From Cellulomonas sp. Root485 (GTDB lineage Bacteria > Actinomycetota > Actinomycetes > Actinomycetales > Cellulomonadaceae), in assembly GCF_001426705.1 (NCBI RefSeq), contig NZ_LMFC01000002.1, forward strand, positions 1,015,905 through 1,079,904: a stretch of 64,000 nucleotides of DNA, in the 5' to 3' direction. Of this stretch, positions 2,043 to 44,555 are shown piece by piece (within the stretch, counting starts at the first letter, position 1; every line of letters starts with the position of its first letter). Position numbers and translations under genes: made by a program. Below the pieces are notes generated by a model, which ran no database searches, was not told where the DNA came from, and was given only the letters and a program-made list of their open reading frames with translations.

Positions 2043-3350
2043 ATGAGCTTGCGCACCACCACCTCTCCTTCCGCTGCGACCGGCCACGAGCCCGTCGCGG
2101 CTGTCGTGCCCTCCGGGGTCGGTCCGGCCGTCGACCCCGCGGCCACCGCGCAGTTCCGTCCCAACGCCAAGTACGTGCTGATGCTGGGGCTGATGTGCGC
2201 CCTGCCGGCCGTGTCCACCGACATGTACCTGCCGTCGCTGCCGGACGTGGCGCGTGACCTGAACACGTCGGCCACCGCGGCGCAGCTCACGATGACGGCG
2301 ATGCTCATCGGCGGCGCCGTCGGGCAGCTGGTCATCGGGCCGCTGTCGGACCGGTTCGGTCGGCGCAAGCCGGTGCTGATCGGTGTCGTCCTGCACGTCA
2401 TCACGTCGCTGCTGTGCGCGATCGCGCCTGCCATCGTGCCGCTGATCGGGCTGCGCACCGTCCAGGGCTTCTTCAACGCGTCGGCGACCGTCGTGGCGAT
2501 GGCGATCATCCGCGACCGGTTCGTGGGTGCCGACGCCTCGCGGCTGATGTCCCGGCTCATGCTCGTCATCGGGGTCGCACCGCTGTTCGCCCCGTCGCTC
2601 GGAGGCGTCATCGCCGGGCAGTGGGGCTGGCGGTCGGTGTTCGTCGCGCTCGCCGGGTTCGGCGTCGTGCTGTGGGTCGTCGTCTGGCGTCGGCTCCCGG
2701 AGACGCTGCCGCCCGAGCGGCGCCGGCAGGGGGGCCTGCGCACCGCGGTGTCCGGCTACCGCTCGCTGCTCCGGGACCGGCACTTCGTCGCGCTGGCGAT
2801 CCTGCCCGGGCTCGGCATGGCCGTGCTGATGAGCTACGTGGTCGCGTCGCCGTTCGTGCTCCGCGAGGGCTACGGGCTGTCGGCGACCGAGTTCTCGCTG
2901 CTCTTCGCGGTCAACGGCATCGGTCTGGTGCTGGGCGCCCAGGTGAACGCTTCCCTGGTGCGGCGGGTCGCCCCGATCCGGATCGTGCGCGTGGTGCTGC
3001 CGGTCTCGCTCGGGCTCACCGGCGTCCTGCTCGCGCTCGCGCTCACCGGCTGGGGAGGCCTGATCGCGCTGCTCGTGGTGCTGTGGCTGATCCTGGCGCT
3101 CGTCAACTTCGTCCCGCCGAACGCGTCGGCGCTGGCCCTCACCCGGCACGGGGAGATCGCGGGGACCGCCGCCGCGGTCATCGGGTCCATGCAGGCCGGT
3201 GTCGCAGGGCTCGTGAGCCCGCTGTCGGGCCTGCTGGGCGGCGACGCGGTCGCGATGGCGTCCGTGATGGTCGGTGCGTCGGTGGCGGCTCTGCTGGTGC
3301 TCGCGCTGGCCACCCCGGCGTACCGCCGCGACGGCGCCTGGGCCGTCTGA
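2043..3350 (+). CDS. Bcr/CflA-type multidrug MFS exporter
   Basis: This 435-residue, 12-helix major facilitator is of the Bcr/CflA drug:proton antiporter type. Family signatures are the first-helix motif STDMYLPSLPDVARDL (near residues 59-74), a loop 2-3 motif GPLSDRFGRRKPVL, and an antiporter-like RTVQGFFNASATVVAMAIIRD stretch in helices 4-5. The reading frame is open far upstream. The ATG at 2043 was chosen because GGGAG sits 10 nt before it and the preceding residues lack homology features. The N-terminal 35 residues are a hydrophilic, alanine-rich tail. Control by the tandem palindromes just upstream is likely. The substrate is unknown; bicyclomycin, sulfonamides or chloramphenicol are typical of the family. 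Confidence 0.88.
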   Translation: MSLRTTTSPSAATGHEPVAAVVPSGVGPAVDPAATAQFRPNAKYVLMLGLMCALPAVSTDMYLPSLPDVARDLNTSATAAQLTMTAMLIGGAVGQLVIGPLSDRFGRRKPVLIGVVLHVITSLLCAIAPAIVPLIGLRTVQGFFNASATVVAMAIIRDRFVGADASRLMSRLMLVIGVAPLFAPSLGGVIAGQWGWRSVFVALAGFGVVLWVVVWRRLPETLPPERRRQGGLRTAVSGYRSLLRDRHFVALAILPGLGMAVLMSYVVASPFVLREGYGLSATEFSLLFAVNGIGLVLGAQVNASLVRRVAPIRIVRVVLPVSLGLTGVLLALALTGWGGLIALLVVLWLILALVNFVPPNASALALTRHGEIAGTAAAVIGSMQAGVAGLVSPLSGLLGGDAVAMASVMVGASVAALLVLALATPAYRRDGAWAV

Positions 3351-35610: not shown

Positions 35611-37203
35611 ATGACGACACCACCCGCGGGGTCCGCACCGACGCTGGACCGGCGCCTCGCCATCCTGCTCGCGATGGCGATGTTCGTCCTGGTGGTCGAC
35701 ACCTCCTTCATGAACGTCTCCATCTCGGCCGTGGTCGCCGACCTCGACACGACGGTCAGCGGTGTCCAGTCGGCGATCGCGCTCGAGGCCCTCGTGTCGG
35801 CGGCGTTCATCCTCATCGGCAGCAAGGTCGGAGACCTCGCGGGCCGCAAGCGGGCGTACGTGCTGGGGCTGCTCGCGTACGCGACGGGCGCGGTCGCGAT
35901 GATGCTCGCGCAGAGCCTCACCGCGGTGATCATCTTCTGGGCGATCATCGGCGGCCTGGGCGCGTCGCTCCTGCTGCCCTCCATGCAGTCGCTGATCCAC
36001 GGCAACTTCACCGGCGGCAACCAGGTGAAGGTCTACGCGCTCGTCGGTGCGTCCGCCTCGATCGCCGCGGCCGTCGGCCCCCTGCTCGGCGGGTTCATCA
36101 CCACCTACCTCTCGTGGCGGGTGGCCTTCGGGCTCGAGGCGCTGATCATCGTGGTCGTGCTCAGCGGCATCAAGCTGGTCAAGGACGTGCAGTACACGGG
36201 CGACCGCTCGATCGACCTCGTCGGCGCGGGACTGTCCGCGCTCGCGATGGGCGGCATCGTCCTCGGGATCCTCGTGTGGCAGGAGGGCGGCGAGGCCGTC
36301 GGCGCGCTGATCGCCCTCGGCGGCATCGCGCTCGCGGCCCTCGTCTGGTGGCTGCTGCGCCGCAAGCGTCAGGGCAAGCCCGTGCTGCTCGACCCCGACC
36401 TGTTCCGGCTCCCGCTGTTCCGCGTCGGGGTGTCCCAGCAGACGCTCCAGCAGATCACGCTCGGCGCCGCCATGATCACGCTGCCGATCTTCCTGCAGAT
36501 GGTGCTCGAGTACGACGCGATGGCGGCGGGCCTCTCGCTGGCACCCCTGTCGCTGAGCATGTTCGCGATGGCCCTGCTCGCCGGGAAGCGCGCGGGGCGG
36601 CGCCGGCCCGCCACGATCGTCCTGGTGGGCTTCACGCTGGTCGTGATCGGCATCCTCGTGCTCATCCCGATCGTCCCGCGCGCGACGTCCGGCTGGTACC
36701 TCGTGCTGCCGCTGCTCGTCGTCGGCTCCGGCCTCGGCCTGCTCGTCTCCCAGCTGAACAACTACACGCTGTCCCCGATCACCGAGGAGCGCGTCAGCGA
36801 GGCCGCCGGCGTCAACTCGGCCGCCGGCTCGTTCGGGCTGTCGTTCGGGCTCGCGTTCGCCGGTGGCGTCATGCTCGCCGCGCTGTCCCTCGGGTTCACC
36901 GCCCAGGCCGACGCCAGCACGGTCCTCTCGCCCGCGGAGCAGACCCAGGTGGCCACCGCGCTCGAGGAGGACGCCGAGCTGATGAGCAACACCGCGCTGG
37001 AGGAGACCCTCGTCGGCCAGCCGGAGGACGTGCAGGCCGAGATCCTGCGCATCAACACCGAGGTCCGGCCGCGCGCCCTGCAGATCGCACTCCTCGTCCC
37101 GCTGCTCGCCGGCCTCGTCGGGGTGGTCAACGGCGTCCGGATGCGGCGGCTGCCCGACCCGCAGCCGAACGCTGCCGTCGAGGGTGCGTCGCTCGGCGGC
37201 TAG
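35611..37203 (+). CDS. EmrB/QacA-type (DHA2) MFS multidrug exporter
   Basis: This 530-residue, 14-helix exporter is of the DHA2 family. Signatures are VVDTSFMNVSISAVVADLDTT in helix 1, KVGDLAGRKRAYVLGL in the loop 2-3 region, and GASASIAAAVGPLLGGFI (motif C, diagnostic for antiporters) in helix 5. A soluble stretch of about 60 residues near 440-490 separates the last two helices. The ATG is 6 nt after TACGCT (a possible leaderless -10); no ribosome site is seen. Its stop overlaps the stop of the convergent MocR gene in a shared CTAG. No local regulator is obvious. Substrates are probably cationic or hydrophobic drugs. Confidence 0.9.
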   Translation: MTTPPAGSAPTLDRRLAILLAMAMFVLVVDTSFMNVSISAVVADLDTTVSGVQSAIALEALVSAAFILIGSKVGDLAGRKRAYVLGLLAYATGAVAMMLAQSLTAVIIFWAIIGGLGASLLLPSMQSLIHGNFTGGNQVKVYALVGASASIAAAVGPLLGGFITTYLSWRVAFGLEALIIVVVLSGIKLVKDVQYTGDRSIDLVGAGLSALAMGGIVLGILVWQEGGEAVGALIALGGIALAALVWWLLRRKRQGKPVLLDPDLFRLPLFRVGVSQQTLQQITLGAAMITLPIFLQMVLEYDAMAAGLSLAPLSLSMFAMALLAGKRAGRRRPATIVLVGFTLVVIGILVLIPIVPRATSGWYLVLPLLVVGSGLGLLVSQLNNYTLSPITEERVSEAAGVNSAAGSFGLSFGLAFAGGVMLAALSLGFTAQADASTVLSPAEQTQVATALEEDAELMSNTALEETLVGQPEDVQAEILRINTEVRPRALQIALLVPLLAGLVGVVNGVRMRRLPDPQPNAAVEGASLGG

Positions 37204-38692: not shown

Positions 38693-39679
38693 ATGCAGCA
38701 GCGCACCATCGGCTCCGGCTCCACCTCCACCGACGTCAGCGTCCTGTGCCTGGGCACGATGCGCTTCGGCACGCACACGCCGCGCGAGACGGCCTTCGAG
38801 GTCCTCGACCGCTTCGTCGACGCCGGCGGCACGTTCCTCGACACCGCGAACAACTACAACGCGTGGGACGCGGGCGGCCACGGGCACGAGAGCGAGGACG
38901 TCATCGGCGCCTGGCTGGCGTCGCGCGGGCTGCGGGACCGCGTCCGCATCGCGACCAAGTGCGGCGCCGCCAAGAAGGACCCGAACCTGCCCCTGTCGAA
39001 CACGCCGCCGACGAACTTCCAGGGGCTGGCCGCCGAGACCCTCCACCGCGAGGCTGCCACCAGCCTGCGCCACCTGGGCGTCGACCGCCTCGACGTCCTC
39101 TACGGGCACGTGGACGACCGCGACACCGCGCTGGAGGAGACCGTCGGCGCGTTCGGCAAGCTCGTCGCCGACGGCGTCGTGGGCGTGCCGGGGATCTCCA
39201 ACGTCACGACGTGGCGGGTCGTCGAGGCCCGCGAGACCGCGGCCCGGCTCGGCGTCGAGCCGTACGGCCTCGTCCAGCAGCAGGGCAGCTACGTGTACCC
39301 GAGCCCGACGCCGTACCGGTCCAACTGGGTGTCCGGCGACCTGCTCGACTACGCCGCGTCCACCGGCGTCGACGGCCGCCCGCCGCTCGCCGTGACCGTG
39401 TACTCGCCGCTGCACCAGGGCGCGTACACGCGCGCCGACAAGTCGCTGTTCGGCGGCGCCGACCACCCGAGCAGCCGCCGACGGGTCGAGGTGCTGCACG
39501 AGGTCGCGCGCGAGGCGGGCGCCACGGCGAACCAGGTCGCGCTCGCGTGGCTGCTGGGCGGCCCGACACCGGTCATCCCGATCGTCGGGGCGCACACGGT
39601 CGCGCAGCTCGACGAGTCGCTGGGCGCGCTCGACCTCGTGCTCGACCAGGAGCTGCGCACGCGGCTCGACGAGGCCTGA
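38693..39679 (+). CDS. Aldo/keto reductase
   Basis: This 328-residue NADPH-dependent TIM-barrel reductase has the N-terminal signature LCLGTMRFGTHTP, the catalytic Asp in FLDTANNYN, Lys in RIATKCGAA, and His in LYGHVDDRDT. The C-terminal cofactor region reads PIVGAHTVAQLDE. The substrate is unknown. The leader carries TAGCGT (38653-38658) and GAGGAG 8 nt before the ATG, so this is a conventional leadered mRNA. It is divergent from the PLP-type MocR regulator. Since some MocR proteins govern B6 salvage and some reductases of this class reduce pyridoxal, a vitamin B6 role is conceivable, but nothing in the sequence proves it. Confidence 0.88.
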   Translation: MQQRTIGSGSTSTDVSVLCLGTMRFGTHTPRETAFEVLDRFVDAGGTFLDTANNYNAWDAGGHGHESEDVIGAWLASRGLRDRVRIATKCGAAKKDPNLPLSNTPPTNFQGLAAETLHREAATSLRHLGVDRLDVLYGHVDDRDTALEETVGAFGKLVADGVVGVPGISNVTTWRVVEARETAARLGVEPYGLVQQQGSYVYPSPTPYRSNWVSGDLLDYAASTGVDGRPPLAVTVYSPLHQGAYTRADKSLFGGADHPSSRRRVEVLHEVAREAGATANQVALAWLLGGPTPVIPIVGAHTVAQLDESLGALDLVLDQELRTRLDEA

Positions 39680-39691
39680 CTGTCGCGGGTC

Positions 39692-40201
39692 TCAGTCGGT
39701 GGCGAGGCGTCGTTCCATGAGGACGACGTCTCGCCACTGTCCCTCCAGCGGCCCGTAGGTCATGCGGCCGAGCCGTTCCCGGGTGCCGACGACGCGGAAC
39801 CCGGCCGCGGTGTGCAGGGCGATGCTCGCGGAGTTCTCCGGGAAGATGCCGGACTGCACGGTCCAGACGCCACCGGCGGCCGCCGAGTCGAGCAGCGCGT
39901 CGAGGAGCGCCCGGCCGACGCCGCGTCCGCGCGCTGCCGGGTCGACGTACACGGAGTGCTCGATCACGCCGGCGTACACGCACCGGTCGGACACCGCCGA
40001 CGCGGCGGCCCAGCCGAGGACCCGGCCGTCGTCGTCGACGGCGACGAACCGGTGGTCGCGGACCTTGCCGGCGTCGAAGGCGTCCCACGTCGGCGGCGCG
40101 GCCTCGAAGGTGGCGTGCCCGGTCGCGATGCCGTCGGCGTAGATGCGCTCGACCTGCGCCCAGTGCTCGGCGGCCAGGGGCTCGATGCGCACCGCGGTCA
40201 C
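39692..40201 (-). CDS. arsN: GNAT acetyltransferase of the phosphinothricin/arsinothricin (PAT/ArsN-like) type
   Basis: This 169-residue acetyltransferase is similar in layout to phosphinothricin N-acetyltransferases: VRIEPLAAEHWAQVERIYADGIATGHATFE, SVYVDPAARGRGVGRALLDALLDSA (acetyl-CoA loop) and the C-terminal GTRERLGRMTYGPLEGQWRDVVLMER. Its GTG start (40201-40199) overlaps the arsR stop, so translation is coupled. In ars operons such enzymes are ArsN1, which inactivate the organoarsenical antibiotic arsinothricin by N-acetylation. That assignment rests on context. The frame continues upstream through arsR, but the GTG start is the natural one. Confidence 0.8.
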   Translation of the reverse strand: MTAVRIEPLAAEHWAQVERIYADGIATGHATFEAAPPTWDAFDAGKVRDHRFVAVDDDGRVLGWAAASAVSDRCVYAGVIEHSVYVDPAARGRGVGRALLDALLDSAAAGGVWTVQSGIFPENSASIALHTAAGFRVVGTRERLGRMTYGPLEGQWRDVVLMERRLATD

Positions 40202-40563
40202 GCGGCGCTCCTGGTCAGGTGGGTACCGAGGTGGCGGGTCACCTGCTCGAGCGCACCGGGCACGAGCGCGAAGTAGGCCCACACGCCGCGCTTGTCGCGG
40301 GTGATCAGGCCGGCGTCGGTGAGCACCTTGAGATGGTGCGACACGGTCGGCTGGCTCAGGCCGACGGGCTCGATGAGGTCGCAGACGCAGGCCTCCGCAC
40401 CGTCGTGCGCCGCGATGAGGGACAGCAGCCGCAGTCGCGCCGGGTCCGCGAGCGCCTTGAGCGTGCGGGCGAGCTGGACGGCATCCTGATCGCTGATCGC
40501 CGCGCTCGTGGCGGGGGTGCAGCACGCGGCGGGGGTCGAGACGGGCAGCAGGTCCAGAGGCAT
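40198..40563 (-). CDS. arsR: ArsR-family As(III)-responsive repressor
   Basis: This 121-residue winged-helix repressor reads DPARLRLLSLIAAHDGAEACVCDLIEPVGLSQPTVSHHLKVL. It has two Cys groups: C59 and C61 in ACVCDL, as in E. coli ArsR, and C14-C15 near the N-terminus, as in the Corynebacterium glutamicum type. Arsenite binding to such thiols releases DNA. The ATG at 40563 was chosen because a longer N-terminus from 40650 would read through the operator region. Operator candidates lie in the divergent gap before arsM. The gene is coupled to arsN. Confidence 0.93.
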   Translation of the reverse strand: MPLDLLPVSTPAACCTPATSAAISDQDAVQLARTLKALADPARLRLLSLIAAHDGAEACVCDLIEPVGLSQPTVSHHLKVLTDAGLITRDKRGVWAYFALVPGALEQVTRHLGTHLTRSAA

Positions 40564-40673
40564 GTGGCAAGTATGCCGCGGAGATTGACGGCTGTCGATA
40601 TTGACACCCATGGATGTCTGGTGCAGAGTCGGCATCGAACACATCGACACGCATCGATATCTGAGGAGACATC
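40564..40673. promoter_or_regulatory. Divergent ars promoter/operator region
   Basis: This 110-bp gap is the AT-richest stretch nearby. It holds repeated TCGATAT/TTGACA words (TGTCGATATTGACA near 40592-40605, CATCGACACGCATCGATAT near 40643-40661). These resemble ArsR-type imperfect inverted repeats and flank both start sites. Confidence 0.5.
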
Positions 40674-41414
40674 ATGGACGACGTCCGCGAGCAGGTCCGC
40701 CAGCGCTACGCCCTCGCCGCAGTGCAGACCACCGACGACGGGTGTTGCGGCGGGTCGTGCGGGCCCACGGACGAGAGCTTCGGGCAGGCGCTCTACGACG
40801 CGACGGAGGTCGCCGGCATCCCCGTCGAGGCGGTCGCCGCGTCGCTCGGCTGCGGCAACCCCCTCACGGTCGCGGAGCTCGCGGCGGGCGAGCGGGTCCT
40901 CGACCTGGGCTCGGGCGGCGGCATCGACGTGCTGCTCTCTGCCCGCCGGGTCGGACCCACCGGGTTCGCGTACGGGGTCGACATGACCGACGAGATGCTC
41001 GCGCTGGCACGGGCGAACGCGGCGAAGGCCGGCGCGACCAACGTGGAGTTCCGCAAGGGCACCATCGAGGAGCTGCCGTTCGCGGACGCCTCGGTCGACG
41101 TCGTCATCTCGAACTGCGTCGTCAACCTCTCGCCGGACAAGCCCGCCGTCCTGGGCGAGGTGTTCCGGGTGCTCACGGACGGCGGCCGGGTCGGCATCTC
41201 CGACGTCGTCGCCGAGGACCACCTGACCCCCGAGCAGCGCGCCGAGCGCGGTTCGTACGTCGGCTGCATCGCCGGCGCGCTGTCCCGCTCGGAGTACCTC
41301 AGCGGCCTGGCCGACGCCGGGTTCGTCGACGCGGACGTCACCTTCACCCACCAGGTCGCCGACGGCATGCACGGGGCCGTCGTCCGCGCCCGCAAGCCCG
41401 CCAGGGAGGACTGA
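40674..41414 (+). CDS. arsM: Arsenite S-adenosylmethionine methyltransferase
   Basis: This 246-residue class I methyltransferase converts arsenite stepwise to methylated arsenicals. The SAM loop is VLDLGSGGGIDVLLSA, followed by GVDMTDEMLALA. Arsenic-binding cysteines match ArsM: C60 in SLGCGNP, C148 in ISNCVVNLSPDK and C198 in YVGCIAGALS, with an N-terminal CC pair (C24, C25) plus C29. It is the first gene of the rightward ars unit, and its stop overlaps the next start (TGATG). Confidence 0.95.
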   Translation: MDDVREQVRQRYALAAVQTTDDGCCGGSCGPTDESFGQALYDATEVAGIPVEAVAASLGCGNPLTVAELAAGERVLDLGSGGGIDVLLSARRVGPTGFAYGVDMTDEMLALARANAAKAGATNVEFRKGTIEELPFADASVDVVISNCVVNLSPDKPAVLGEVFRVLTDGGRVGISDVVAEDHLTPEQRAERGSYVGCIAGALSRSEYLSGLADAGFVDADVTFTHQVADGMHGAVVRARKPARED

Positions 41415-41614
41415 TGCACCCGGACCTGTACTTCGTCGTCCACCAACAGCGCGAGCGCGAGCTCGACGAGAGGCTGCGTCGGCGGCTCGTCGCCGAGGAG
41501 CGCGCGACCCCGAGGACCGCGGGCGCACGGCGTCCCCGGCTCACGCGGCTCGTCTCCTGGGTGCAGTCCGCGCGGCCCGCACCCCGTCCGGCGCCCGTGT
41601 GCTGCCCCGCCTGA
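41414..41614 (+). CDS. 66-aa Cys-tailed basic protein in the ars operon
   Basis: This 66-residue frame starts at the ATG overlapping the arsM stop (TGATG), so it is probably translated by coupling. The protein begins MHPDLYFVVHQQREREL, has an Arg/Glu-rich helix (about 12-35), a basic Pro/Ala-rich segment, and ends in VCCPA, a vicinal Cys pair. It is followed 25 bp later by the flavoprotein gene. No family is recognised. The CC tail recalls As(III)-binding sites in its neighbours, so a metalloid carrier, chaperone or sensor is possible. The hydrophilic sequence rules out an efflux pump. Confidence 0.6.
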   Translation: MHPDLYFVVHQQRERELDERLRRRLVAEERATPRTAGARRPRLTRLVSWVQSARPAPRPAPVCCPA

Positions 41615-41639
41615 GTCCCACCACGACCGAAGGATCCGC

Positions 41640-43040
41640 ATGACCATCCAGCACCCCGACCTGCCCGTCGTCGTCATCGGCGCCGGGCCGGTCGGCCTCG
41701 CCGCCGCCGCGCACCTGCGCGAGCGGGGTCTCGAGCCGCTCGTCCTCGAACAGGGCGACACCGTCGGCGCCGCCGTCGCGTCGTGGGGTCACATCCGTCT
41801 GTTCTCCCCGTGGCGGTACGCGATCGACGCCGCCGCGCGCCGGCTGCTCGACGCGACCGGCTGGGTCGCACCCGACCCCGACGAGCTCCCCACGGGCGCC
41901 GATCTCGTCGAGCGCTACCTGTCCCCGTTGGCCACGACGACACCGATCGCCGCGCACGTCCGCACCGGCACGCAGGTCCTCGGCGTCTCCCGGGACGGAG
42001 CCGACCGGACGCAGTCCCTCGGCCGCGAGCGCCGCCCGTACCGCGTCCGGACGCTCACGGCGGACGGCGAGGTCCGGGACGTCATCGCGGCAGCCGTCCT
42101 GGACGCCTCCGGGACGTACGGGCACCGCAACCCCGTGGGTTCCGGGGGTCTGCCCGCCGTCGGTGAGGTCGACGCGCAGGATTACCTCGCCGGACCGCTG
42201 CCCGACGTCCGCGGCGTCGATCGTGCGCGGTTCGCCGGCCGGCACACCCTCGTGCTCGGCATGGGCCACTCCGCCGCGAACAGCCTGCTCGCCCTCGTCG
42301 ACCTCGCGCGCGACGAGCCCGGGACGACCATCAGCTGGGCCATCCGCGGAGGGTCGGCACGGCGGCTGTTCGGAGGGGGTGCGGACGACGAGCTGCCCGC
42401 CCGGGGTCTGCTCGGCAGCCGCCTGCGCGCCGCGGTCGACGCCGGCGCGCTCACGCTCCTGACCCGGGTGTCGATCGACCGCCTCACCCCCGACGGCGAC
42501 ACGGTGCACGTGTCGGGGACGGCGCGCGACGAGCAGATCGCGCTCGACGTGCACGCGATCGTGGACGCCACGGGCTTCCGGCCCGACCTCGACCTGCTGC
42601 GCGAGATCCGCCTGGACCTCGACCCGGTCGTCGAGGCACCCCGGGAGCTCGCACCGCTCATCGACCCGAACCTCCACTCGTGCGGGACCGTCCCGCCGCA
42701 CGGCGAGAGCGTGCTGGCGCATCCCGACGCGGGGTTCTACCTGGTCGGGATGAAGAGCTACGGCCGCGCGCCGACGTTCCTGCTCGCCACCGGCTACGAG
42801 CAGGTCCGCTCGATCGCGGCGGCGCTCGCCGGGGACCGCGCGTCGGCCGACGAGGTCCAGCTCCAGCTGCCCGCGACGGGGGTCTGCTCGACGGACACCG
42901 CCGCCGACGGCGCGGACGCGGCGGCATGCTGTGGCACAGCGGCCGGTCCGGTCGCCGTCTCGTTGACAGCACCGGTGCTCGGCTTCCGGTCCGGTGTGCT
43001 GCACGGACGCAGTGGCGATCTCCCCGGGGGCCTCGCGTGA
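41640..43040 (+). CDS. FAD/NAD(P)-dependent oxidoreductase of ars operons (ArsO-like flavoprotein monooxygenase)
   Basis: This 466-residue flavoprotein has two Rossmann motifs: VVVIGAGPVGLAAAAHLRERG for FAD at the N-terminus, and HTLVLGMGHSAANSLLALVD for NADPH mid-protein. IVDATGFRPDLDLL is the second FAD contact. The C-terminal extension carries GVCSTD and ACCGTAAG, a vicinal Cys pair not needed by ordinary monooxygenases. ArsO-type enzymes accompany ars genes and may oxidise arsenicals; the reaction is not well established. GAAGGA lies 6 nt before the ATG, and the stop overlaps the GTG of arsC. Confidence 0.85.
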   Translation: MTIQHPDLPVVVIGAGPVGLAAAAHLRERGLEPLVLEQGDTVGAAVASWGHIRLFSPWRYAIDAAARRLLDATGWVAPDPDELPTGADLVERYLSPLATTTPIAAHVRTGTQVLGVSRDGADRTQSLGRERRPYRVRTLTADGEVRDVIAAAVLDASGTYGHRNPVGSGGLPAVGEVDAQDYLAGPLPDVRGVDRARFAGRHTLVLGMGHSAANSLLALVDLARDEPGTTISWAIRGGSARRLFGGGADDELPARGLLGSRLRAAVDAGALTLLTRVSIDRLTPDGDTVHVSGTARDEQIALDVHAIVDATGFRPDLDLLREIRLDLDPVVEAPRELAPLIDPNLHSCGTVPPHGESVLAHPDAGFYLVGMKSYGRAPTFLLATGYEQVRSIAAALAGDRASADEVQLQLPATGVCSTDTAADGADAAACCGTAAGPVAVSLTAPVLGFRSGVLHGRSGDLPGGLA

Positions 43041-43450
43041 CCACGATCCTGTTCGTGTGCGTCCACAACGCCGGACGCTCGCAGCTCGCGGCCGGCCTCG
43101 CGGCCGCACGGGCCGGCGTCGACGTCGTCATCGCGTCGGCGGGCACCGACCCGGACGACGCCGTCAGCGCCACCGTCCTCGCGTCGCTGGCCGAGCTCGG
43201 CATCGACCGCAGTGCCGAGGTCCCGCGCCGGCTGACCCCTGAGCTCGCTGCCGAGGCGGACGTCCTCGTCGCCCTCAAGCCGGGGCTCGACCTTCCTGCC
43301 CACCCCCGGGTCGAGACGTGGCCGCTGCCCGACCCGGCGGCGTGGGACGTGGACGGCGTCCGACCGCTCCGCGACCACATCGACGGACTGGTGGCGGACC
43401 TGCTGCGACGGCAGTCCGTCGCACCGGTCGGCAGTGTCCGGCGCGACTGA
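43037..43450 (+). CDS. arsC: Low-molecular-weight-phosphatase-type arsenate reductase
   Basis: This 137-residue protein has the LMW protein tyrosine phosphatase loop VCVHNAGRSQ (C8-X5-R14) and a later Asp in PLPDPAAWDVDG. This is the pattern of ArsC enzymes that reduce arsenate using mycothiol/mycoredoxin or thioredoxin. Few other Cys are present, which favours the mycothiol-dependent kind known from Corynebacterium. The GTG at 43037 overlaps the previous stop (GTGA). It is the last gene of the unit. It supplies As(III) to ArsM, since no efflux gene is here. Confidence 0.9.
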   Translation: MTTILFVCVHNAGRSQLAAGLAAARAGVDVVIASAGTDPDDAVSATVLASLAELGIDRSAEVPRRLTPELAAEADVLVALKPGLDLPAHPRVETWPLPDPAAWDVDGVRPLRDHIDGLVADLLRRQSVAPVGSVRRD

Positions 43451-43604
43451 CGGGAACGTCGCGCCGTCGTTGATTGTTCAACTGGGGGAAATCATTCGGA
43501 AACGGTTGGCGTGACACCCTCGACGGAGCATCCCGACGCCCCGGTGTGCGCGCGCCGCTCCCGGGTCCTGAGGACGCCGGCGCCACCCCCGGATCGAGGA
43601 ACAC
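43451..43604. other. AT-richer leader of the sugar kinase gene
   Basis: This 154-bp gap contains TTGA-N4-TCAA (TTGATTGTTCAA near 43470-43481) and GGAAACGGTTGG near 43497-43508. Both resemble dimeric repressor sites and may control the kinase. No gene or hairpin was seen. Confidence 0.35.
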
Positions 43605-44528
43605 ATGACACTGCATGACGTGCTGGTGGTCGGCGAAGCCCTGATCGACCTCCTCGACGACGGCATGACCATCCGCGAGCGCGTCGGCGGGAGCGCCGGC
43701 AACGTGGCCGTCGGACTGGCGAGGCTCGGGCGGGACGTCGTGCTGCACACGGACCTCGGGCACGACGAGCGCGGCGAGGAGATCGCGGCGTACCTGTCCG
43801 ACGAGGGCGTCCAGCTGTCCGGGTCGTCGTTCGGCGCGGCCGCCTCGTCCGTCCAGCGGGCGGTCGTCCGGTTCGACGGCTCGGCGTCGCACGACTTCCG
43901 GGTCCACTGGGCGCCCTCGCCCGACCCGGGGACCTTCGACGCCCGGTGCGTCCACGCGGGGTCGCTCGCGGCCTACGTGGAGCCGGGCGCGGGCACGGTC
44001 CTCGACCTCGTGGAGCAGGCGCACGGCCGGTCCCTGGTGACCTTCGACGCGAAGGTCGAGCCCGCTCTCGTCACGTCGCGGGAGGCGGCCGTCCGTCGGA
44101 CCGACGACTTCGTGCAGCTCGCCGGGATCGTCAAGACGAGCGAGGCCGACCTGGCCTTCCTCCACCCGGACGTCCCCGCGGTCGACGTGCTGCGCGACTG
44201 GGTGGCCCGCGGTCCGGACCTCGTGGTCCTGACCCGTGGGGCGCGCGGCGCGACGGCGGTCACCGCGCGGGGCATCGTCGACGTGCCCGCCGTCCCCGTC
44301 CTGTACGCGGACGAGGTGGGCGGGGCCGGCGACGCCTTCATGTCGAGCCTCATCGACACCGCGCTGAGCTGGGACGCGGACGTGAGCATGCGCTGGCTGC
44401 GCTCGGGCGCCCCGGTGGTGGAGCAGGTGCTGATCCGCTCGGTGCGTGCCGCGGCGCTGACCATCGCTCGGCTGGGAGCGGTGCCACCGACCGCGGCGGA
44501 GCTCGCGGTCGCCCCGACCAGCGCCTGA
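43605..44528 (+). CDS. PfkB-family carbohydrate kinase (fructokinase-like)
   Basis: This 307-residue ribokinase-family sugar kinase opens with VLVVGEALIDLLDD. It contains RVGGSAGNVAVGLARLGRDV (substrate-binding GG motif) and the C-terminal anion-hole/catalytic signature YADEVGGAGDAFMSSLID, in which the Asp of GAGD is the base. KTSEADLAFLHPD is the typical KXN-like region. The pattern is closest to fructokinases, but sugar specificity is not readable. GAGGAA lies just before the ATG. It stands alone, without a transporter, between the ars unit and a TetR-ABC operon. Confidence 0.88.
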   Translation: MTLHDVLVVGEALIDLLDDGMTIRERVGGSAGNVAVGLARLGRDVVLHTDLGHDERGEEIAAYLSDEGVQLSGSSFGAAASSVQRAVVRFDGSASHDFRVHWAPSPDPGTFDARCVHAGSLAAYVEPGAGTVLDLVEQAHGRSLVTFDAKVEPALVTSREAAVRRTDDFVQLAGIVKTSEADLAFLHPDVPAVDVLRDWVARGPDLVVLTRGARGATAVTARGIVDVPAVPVLYADEVGGAGDAFMSSLIDTALSWDADVSMRWLRSGAPVVEQVLIRSVRAAALTIARLGAVPPTAAELAVAPTSA

Positions 44529-44555
44529 GGTCTCGTCAGCAGTCGACGAGCGCCC

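Follow-up and report, generated by a model that had tools for sequence, protein, structure and literature searches.

A layered arsenic gene cluster without a pump of its own in Cellulomonas sp. Root485

In the soil-type actinobacterium Cellulomonas sp. Root485, a 64,000-nucleotide stretch of contig NZ_LMFC01000002.1 (the whole stretch that was analysed, hereafter the window) holds a compact arsenic (ars) locus of six genes at positions 39,692 to 43,450. On the minus strand lie arsR (40198..40563), which encodes an ArsR/SmtB repressor of 121 residues, and an arsN-like gene (39692..40201, GTG start) for a GNAT N-acetyltransferase of 169 residues (PF00583) resembling ArsN1 family A; the start of the latter and the stop of the former overlap by 4 bases. 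On the plus strand, arsM (40674..41414), encoding an arsenite S-adenosylmethionine methyltransferase of 246 residues, is followed by a small open reading frame (ORF) for a 66-residue protein (41414..41614, MHPDLY...CCPA, in the correct frame), whose start overlaps the arsM stop by 1 base and whose C-terminus reads VCCPA. Next come the gene for a FAD/NAD(P)H flavoprotein of 466 residues (41640..43040, plus strand) and, overlapping it by 4 bases, arsC (43037..43450, plus strand, GTG start), encoding an LMWP-type arsenate reductase of 137 residues whose only cysteine lies in the sequence CVHNAGRS. An earlier note on this DNA had described arsN-arsR running leftward and arsM, a small Cys protein, the flavoprotein gene and arsC running rightward, all overlapping or nearly abutting, and the reading frames confirm this layout. 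The same arrangement is seen again in C. humilata and C. biazotea, and the ratio of nonsynonymous to synonymous substitution rates (dN/dS) against C. humilata is 0.10-0.36 across all six genes. The catalytic functions in the locus are all of known kinds; what is new is their combination, the layering described below and the presence of two cysteine-tailed proteins.

ArsR scores 94.1 against a cut-off of 55 on NF033788, has as its best PDB match the arsenic-responsive ArsR 6j0e, and carries a CC pair (C14, C15) and a CxC pair (C59, C61). Among 88 aligned rows, C14 is kept in 82, C15 in 78 and both C59 and C61 in 88/88; in this count and in those given below for ArsM (43 rows) and the flavoprotein (113 rows), the rows passed an identity and a length filter, the window's own sequence is counted twice, and near-identical copies fetched twice may be included. 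The ArsR/SmtB fold and these cysteine pairs are hallmarks of an As(III)-responsive repressor, with As(III) as the predicted ligand. ArsM exceeds the cut-off of the curated model NF008823 (298.4 > 263) and best matches the arsenite methyltransferase 5evj. Its residues C60, C148 and C198, which we take to be the arsenic-binding residues, line up with cysteines in ArsM structures that have been solved; C148 and C198 are kept in 43/43 rows and C60 in 41/43. ArsC passes the LMWP profile PF01451 (52.9 > 23.2), contains the CX5R P-loop as CVHNAGRS and falls below the equivalog cut-offs of TIGR02689 and TIGR02691; its best PDB matches are the arsenate reductases 3rh0 and 3t38.

The gap between arsR and arsM contains three inverted repeats resembling ArsR boxes, all listed on the plus strand. 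Specifically, ATTGACGGCTGTCGAT (40584..40599) matches the pattern ATYGAYN4RTCRAT exactly, ATTGACACCCATGGAT (40600..40615) has one mismatch and overlaps a TTGACA element, and ATCGACACGCATCGAT (40643..40658), just 5' of arsM, is again an exact match. The TTGACA (40601-40606), an N17 spacer and CAGAGT (40624-40629) together constitute a putative promoter. With at most one mismatch, the pattern occurs three times in the 64 kb, each time inside this gap, against an expectation of 0.58 for the whole window and three matches in 2/100 shuffles. An exact box is present in 40/40 non-identical arsR-arsM gaps, the window's included (0 in shuffles), and gaps between arsR and flavoprotein genes hold an exact box in 27/99 cases and a box with at most one mismatch in 63/99 (shuffles average 0.28); because the pattern was taken from this gap and its relatives and then counted, these counts are partly circular. 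Since the boxes sit in the arsR-arsM gap, the middle one overlapping the promoter-like element, a single ArsR probably controls both divergent arms.

We compared the locus with a sample of 200 genomes of the family, 60 of them Cellulomonas, and fetched 40 ArsM loci (39 in the genus) and 60 flavoprotein loci, with genes in the relatives called by a codon-score caller rather than taken from annotation. ArsM exceeds its cut-off in 90/200 family genomes and in 50/60 Cellulomonas genomes. Acr3 is found in 25/60 Cellulomonas genomes (one copy being a cut-off fragment), and 27/60 carry ArsM with no Acr3 match; these 27 have no ArsB over the cut-off either, other transporters not having been searched genus-wide. 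Of the 50 Cellulomonas genomes with ArsM, 13 carry Acr3 no more than 5 kb away from it and 37 do not. Across the 40 fetched loci, a divergent ArsR adjoins ArsM in 37, ArsN occurs within three genes in 21, and Acr3 and an ArsK-type MFS protein occur within five genes in at least 8 and at least 1, respectively, the pump counts near ArsM being lower bounds owing to cut contigs and the gene limit. The arrangement arsN-arsR|arsM without an adjoining Acr3 is therefore the ordinary state in Cellulomonas. An arsM gene in the ars cluster of Cellulomonas gilvus is already noted in a published survey (PMC6514093).

The 66-residue small protein matches no Pfam and no NCBIfam family. When ten of its copies were aligned and used as the query, 34/81 genomes of the genus gave a match, the 48-residue C. 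biazotea copy being missed. Of the 19 strongest matches (E < 1e-14), the 15 with a known arsM position all lie directly 3' of arsM (15/15). Among the weaker matches are ones unlinked to arsM, some of which have no CC end, so the small protein belongs to a broader family. Following 44 inspected arsM copies, a candidate small ORF was seen after 20 (two of which look spurious), and its start overlaps the arsM stop in 14. Its dN/dS against the C. humilata copy (L039:9365-9565) is 0.28, over few sites.

The flavoprotein gene and arsC form a distinct 1.8-kb block (41631..43461), which a close relative, genome G180 (L209), lacks at the corresponding site. There, window positions 39600-41630 and 43462-44530 match at approximately 91% with 15 bases between them, so the block is exactly missing and arsM is kept. 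Genomes G169, G179 and G182 show the order aldo/keto reductase-arsN-arsR|arsM without the block, and G182 has a flavoprotein homologue (60%) elsewhere in its genome. In C. humilata the entire arrangement is present, 91.6% identical at the DNA level; in C. biazotea the stretch from arsN through the flavoprotein gene is present at 78%, with no arsC after it. In a tree of the joined arsM, arsR and arsN sequences from 13 genomes, C. biazotea does not join C. humilata and the host but clusters, with support 100, with two genomes that have no flavoprotein, and the block must therefore have been gained repeatedly, lost repeatedly or transferred. Taken together, the locus is layered, with arsN-arsR|arsM as a genus-wide Cellulomonas cassette and flavoprotein-arsC as a separate block, which is either an addition or a survivor. 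The flanks are shared as well: the aldo/keto reductase gene (38693..39679, plus strand) is the neighbour in C. humilata, G180, G179, G169 and G182, and the PfkB-type sugar kinase gene (43605..44528, plus strand) is the neighbour in C. humilata and G180. In C. humilata BE332, an additional ArsC encoded in an aquaporin operon (L039:2490-6425) is 93% identical to the window's ArsC, against 88% for the syntenic ArsC, which suggests that arsC underwent duplication or exchange in that species.

The flavoprotein had been called ArsO-like, a family name that does not stand. It scores 45.6 bits on the ArsO model NF040505, whose cut-off is 425, and plasmid pSSFR1 of Streptomyces sp. FR-008 (L245) carries as separate genes, near each other, a true ArsO (554 bits) and a homologue of our flavoprotein (51.9 bits on the ArsO model), the latter followed by an MFS gene. 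Where actinobacterial ars clusters have been surveyed, the name ArsO may accordingly cover two families. Homologues occur in 85/200 family genomes and in 141 plasmid records, of which 121 cover 80% or more of the flavoprotein, and two members that were scanned reached no NCBIfam cut-off among the matches listed. C348, C416, C430 and C431 are present in 113/113 aligned rows and in all 33 rows of a further alignment; likewise, 6/6 plasmid homologues from Actinomycetota and Pseudomonadota end in a GVC...CC tail, some with extra cysteine pairs. In the AlphaFold model, the C348 loop (residues 344-350) and the tail (residues 411-466) have pLDDT values below 50, and the model does not place these cysteines. 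In an ars-linked flavoenzyme, an invariant and otherwise disordered cysteine tail most plausibly serves as a ligand for trivalent arsenic.

In the 60 family loci, ArsR lies within one gene in 55, GNAT within one gene in 14 and Acr3 within four genes in 20; these neighbour counts used a 40% identity floor for most genes and few reference proteins, and unlisted genes appear as unnamed ORFs. The adjoining GNAT in those 14 loci is of a second type, ArsN1b/phosphinothricin-acetyltransferase-like, and 35-41% identical to the window's ArsN. In 19 annotated plasmid regions, an MFS gene is directly downstream in 11 and a GNAT gene stands beside the homologue or its ArsR in 5; ArsH, ArsJ or arsenite-oxidase-like genes are near the homologue in some. 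ArsV, a flavin monooxygenase whose gene is named there for Paracoccus sp. SY, has been described as oxidising methylarsenite and ArsW as extruding methylarsenate (PMC10080717). An MFS gene after the flavoprotein gene, with ArsH nearby, would suit ArsV-ArsW, for which this order is presumed; gene order thus suggests that the flavoprotein may be ArsV, a methylarsenite oxidase. Additionally, pst phosphate ABC transport genes adjoin or lie near the ArsR-flavoprotein pair in L003, L041, L048, L115, L141 and also L008, where they perhaps favour phosphate over arsenate uptake, and in Nocardia acididurans (L174) the order is flavoprotein-MFS-arsM, with an ArsM 69% identical to the window's and the MFS gene present.

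How the flavoprotein relates to ArsM is informed by their joint distribution: 9/200 genomes have both, 76 have the flavoprotein but no ArsM, 81 show the reverse and 34 carry neither. This avoidance is in part a lineage effect; the two may be alternatives, and neither requires the other. Because they rarely co-occur, the usual substrate of the flavoprotein is more likely an outside arsenical or antimonite, and the product of ArsM is perhaps also met in this locus. A strict pathway, in which ArsC would yield As(III), ArsM methylarsenite and the flavoprotein methylarsenate in place of ArsH and a pump, would suit the placement of all these genes, with overlaps, under one arsR gap, and C. humilata and C. 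biazotea share the order arsM-flavoprotein, neither of them having an Acr3 match in its genome, so that all three carriers are alike in this respect. However, the flavoprotein is absent from 81/90 ArsM genomes and ArsM from 76/85 flavoprotein genomes among the 200, G180 keeps arsM despite lacking the block there, and the cassette tree separates C. biazotea from the other two carriers. We therefore regard such an obligate sequence of steps as unlikely.

The fold of the flavoprotein raises a different possibility, namely that it is a thiol-disulfide or mycothiol-disulfide type reductase powering ArsC instead of an arsenical oxidase. In Foldseek its core fold matches YpdA bacillithiol disulfide reductases, which are the best matches, and N-hydroxylating monooxygenases. 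Its gene overlaps arsC, 19/60 family loci have an ArsC gene of one type no more than one gene away, and the window's ArsC, with its single cysteine, is closest to 3rh0, presumably an ArsC of the mycothiol-dependent type. Yet the phmmer similarity to the best YpdA chain spans only residues 10-56, several genomes of the genus have ArsC beside ArsM with no flavoprotein match, and the family is present in Pseudomonadota, which to our knowledge lack mycothiol, with no cytoplasmic-type ArsC annotated in four stretches. A reductase role of this kind consequently appears improbable, and we favour an arsenical-oxidising flavoprotein in what follows.

The arsN-like GNAT protein finds its best model in ArsN1 family A (NF040503) with 136.9 bits, under the cut-off of 170, and the GNAT proteins of the three operon carriers all score 133-137 bits; as a control, the ArsN1a of P. 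nitroreducens passes the model with 234.1 bits. PpArsN1 binds arsinothricin through Ile31, Phe33, Ala124, Val158 and Arg75-Ala76-Arg77 (PMC6465285). At the Arg75-Ala76-Arg77 site, the ACETYLTRANSFERASE clade to which the window's protein belongs has Ser-x-Arg in 30/30 rows (the window's counted twice), Ser-Asp-Arg in the window itself, and it keeps the equivalents of Phe33 and Arg77, the P. nitroreducens ArsN1a having Arg-Ala-Arg; this residue correspondence was made through relatives, PpArsN1 itself being outside the alignment. The clade may use arsinothricin, with the gate arginine Arg75 replaced and a score under the ArsN1a cut-off. Alternatively, the enzyme could act on another substrate and merely hitch-hike beside arsR, as the scores of the three carriers and the serine at the gate would allow; its recurrence within three genes of ArsM in 21/40 loci, the GNAT-ArsR|flavoprotein order on a Herbiconiux plasmid and a dN/dS of 0.33, by which the gene is maintained, speak for a link to arsenic, so that hitch-hiking is a serious possibility to which we nonetheless give the smaller share of belief.

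As the earlier note had stated, no efflux permease is found in the locus. References for Acr3, ArsK, ArsA, ArsD, ars-linked MFS proteins and aquaporins, compared with the 47 called genes of the window, match nothing in the locus, and the sole match anywhere in the window is a 25.7% one to an MFS gene at 2043-3350; the same references gave 85 Acr3 rows and others among the relatives' loci (twice-fetched copies included), so the comparison works. The ArsJ reference matched neither the 47 window genes nor the relatives' loci, a search that did not extend to the whole genome. Beyond the aldo/keto reductase gene lie a gene read as a MocR-like regulator and an MFS gene at 35611-37203, whose closest families are DHA2/EmrB exporters (175 bits against a cut-off of 230), the ArsJ and ArsK models not being among the matches listed.

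The host genome (4.65 Mb, 7 contigs, 99.99% complete) agrees with this picture for the pumps tested. The Acr3 model (positive in 7/14 control genomes) and the ArsP model (positive in 8/14) gave zero matches, as did ArsK in a search without a positive control. A lone SBF-fold match was considered as an Acr3 and set aside, since it fits the pantoate transporter PanS best, weakly, at 33.9 bits, with the Acr3 model silent. PF02040 gave one ArsB-type match and TIGR00935 two, the best scoring 114.7 bits against a cut-off of 415. This protein is a full-length permease (C1:1101160-1102281) unlinked to the locus, with no ars neighbour across the 15 kb fetched and with counterparts in 67/81 genomes of the genus (E <= 0.001), 2 of them above the cut-off. 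Of the three MIP channels that the host also has, one resembles aquaporin Z, another resembles Gla, and the third adjoins genes interpreted as encoding glycerol kinase and glycerol phosphate dehydrogenase; none was retained as an ars-linked aquaporin, the three genes having no ars neighbour in the stretches fetched.

A second ars locus adds a transporter candidate. The host genome has six LMWP-type matches, two of which form this locus on contig C3 (L258): an ArsR-ArsC fusion (L258:6913-7830), an ArsC 77% identical to an Arthrobacter plasmid ArsC (L258:7827-8240) and an APC-type amino-acid permease (L258:8237-9466), joined by 4-base overlaps and preceded by an MFS_3-type gene that ends 46 bases upstream. 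The permease is matched by models of amino-acid permeases (PF13520, 144 bits), arsenic transporter models are absent from its matches, and no ATYGAYN4RTCRAT box lies in the 16 kb around the locus. Homologues at about 53% identity or more occur 19 times among genes of the relatives' ars loci, a count that includes a few duplicated loci and comes from loci all chosen as ars loci; 8 of the 19 directly adjoin ArsC or Acr3 on the same strand. Actinobacterial examples beside ArsC or Acr3 are found in L212, L071/L110, L160, L161, L164, L166 and L170. We know of no arsenic role for such an APC-type permease; it is a candidate ars transporter and a possible transport route. The known arsenite pumps tested are thus unmatched in the host genome, yet an ars-linked transporter candidate is present.

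These observations bear on whether arsenicals are exported from elsewhere in the genome, by the second-locus permease, the distant ArsB/CitMHS-type permease, an aquaglyceroporin or another transporter, with the locus at hand as an accessory. The overlapping fusion-arsC-permease genes with an MFS gene before them, the recurrence of the permease in relatives' ars loci, and the existence of an ArsB-like protein (PF02040, 84.9 > 22.2) and three MIP channels are what such a route would look like. However, the permease fits amino-acid models, may import amino acids or thiol precursors and has no ArsR box around it, the ArsB-like protein is far under the ArsB cut-off, fits CitMHS better in Pfam (125 vs 85 for ArsB), recurs throughout the genus and has no ars neighbours, and the MIP genes also stand apart from ars genes in the stretches fetched. 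Export by such a route, with the locus at hand as an accessory, seems to us somewhat unlikely.

We therefore propose, tentatively, that the locus is built in layers, transforms arsenic under the control of ArsR and has no pump of its own. The proposal starts from established features, namely the gene content and order, the boxes, the conserved cysteines, the lack of an Acr3 or ArsP match in the genome and the presence or absence of the block. ArsR would occupy the boxes between the divergent arms until released by trivalent arsenic. In the older layer, arsN-arsR|arsM with the small ORF, As(III) would be methylated, and the GNAT enzyme would N-acetylate a putative substrate, an amino-bearing organoarsenical or a phosphinate antibiotic. 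In the added layer, ArsC would reduce arsenate, and the NAD(P)H-dependent flavoprotein would most likely oxidise trivalent organoarsenicals, whether external or ArsM-made methylarsenite, and perhaps antimonite (ArsV reportedly acts on organoarsenicals and antimonite too), to less thiol-reactive pentavalent forms, its flexible cysteine tail capturing the substrate. The products might leave by diffusion, volatilisation or an unlinked transporter. Every one of these catalytic steps is predicted for the host from sequence.

The earlier note had seen a locus geared to organoarsenicals and not to export. A transformation-based reading is reasonable because ArsM keeps its cysteines and ArsR boxes lie between the arms, but the lack of a linked Acr3 is nothing special given that only 13/50 ArsM-bearing genomes have one within 5 kb, and the second ars locus, like the aquaporin-arsC operon of C. 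humilata, makes transport possible. Several points weigh against our proposal. The second ars locus, with its permease gene overlapping arsC, may provide transport, and transporters beyond the tested families could serve as well; in C. humilata, an aquaporin-oxidoreductase-arsC operon, separated by three genes from its copy of the locus, offers a possible transport route; and the flavoprotein and ArsM share so few genomes. Discovery of the second ars locus lowered our confidence from an even balance to slightly below it. A bolder version, which we consider improbable, makes the locus a complete organoarsenical system that needs no pump, with cysteine tails passing trivalent arsenic from protein to protein: the CCPA protein would be a small arsenic chaperone or scavenger for ArsM, and the C416/CC430-431 tail would bring methylarsenite to the flavin for oxidation. 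If true, the genus-wide arsN-arsR|arsM-small ORF cassette would protect against arsenical antibiotics, and possibly also produce them, instead of being an arsenite-resistance operon.

A cell that makes methylarsenite but has neither a dedicated pump nor ArsH is at risk, which raises the question of how one with a pump-free ArsM locus survives, and Cellulomonas is a tractable genus in which to ask whether methylation serves as detoxification or as chemical warfare. Concrete candidate ars genes are those for the small protein linked to arsM and for the second-locus permease.

Among known systems, the actinobacterial arsR-arsC-acr3 loci (PMC6514093) share ArsR and an LMWP-type ArsC with the window locus, which differs in having no Acr3 and in having genes for methylation and acetylation. 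Like ArsN1 acetyltransferases, the window's enzyme is a GNAT protein with ArsN1a as its best model and a place in an ars locus; the window's clade differs in mostly carrying a short insertion before the WxD motif. With ArsO (NF040505) the flavoprotein has in common a flavin-containing, ars-linked nature and a Rossmann FAD motif. A further comparison is with ArsV/ArsW: homologues of the flavoprotein in Rhizobiaceae, Bosea, Nitrobacter and one Paracoccaceae member are linked to ArsR, in many cases have an MFS gene after them, and have ArsH, ArsJ or Acr3 near some of them, whereas the flavoprotein in the window has no MFS partner and is instead joined to arsM and arsC.

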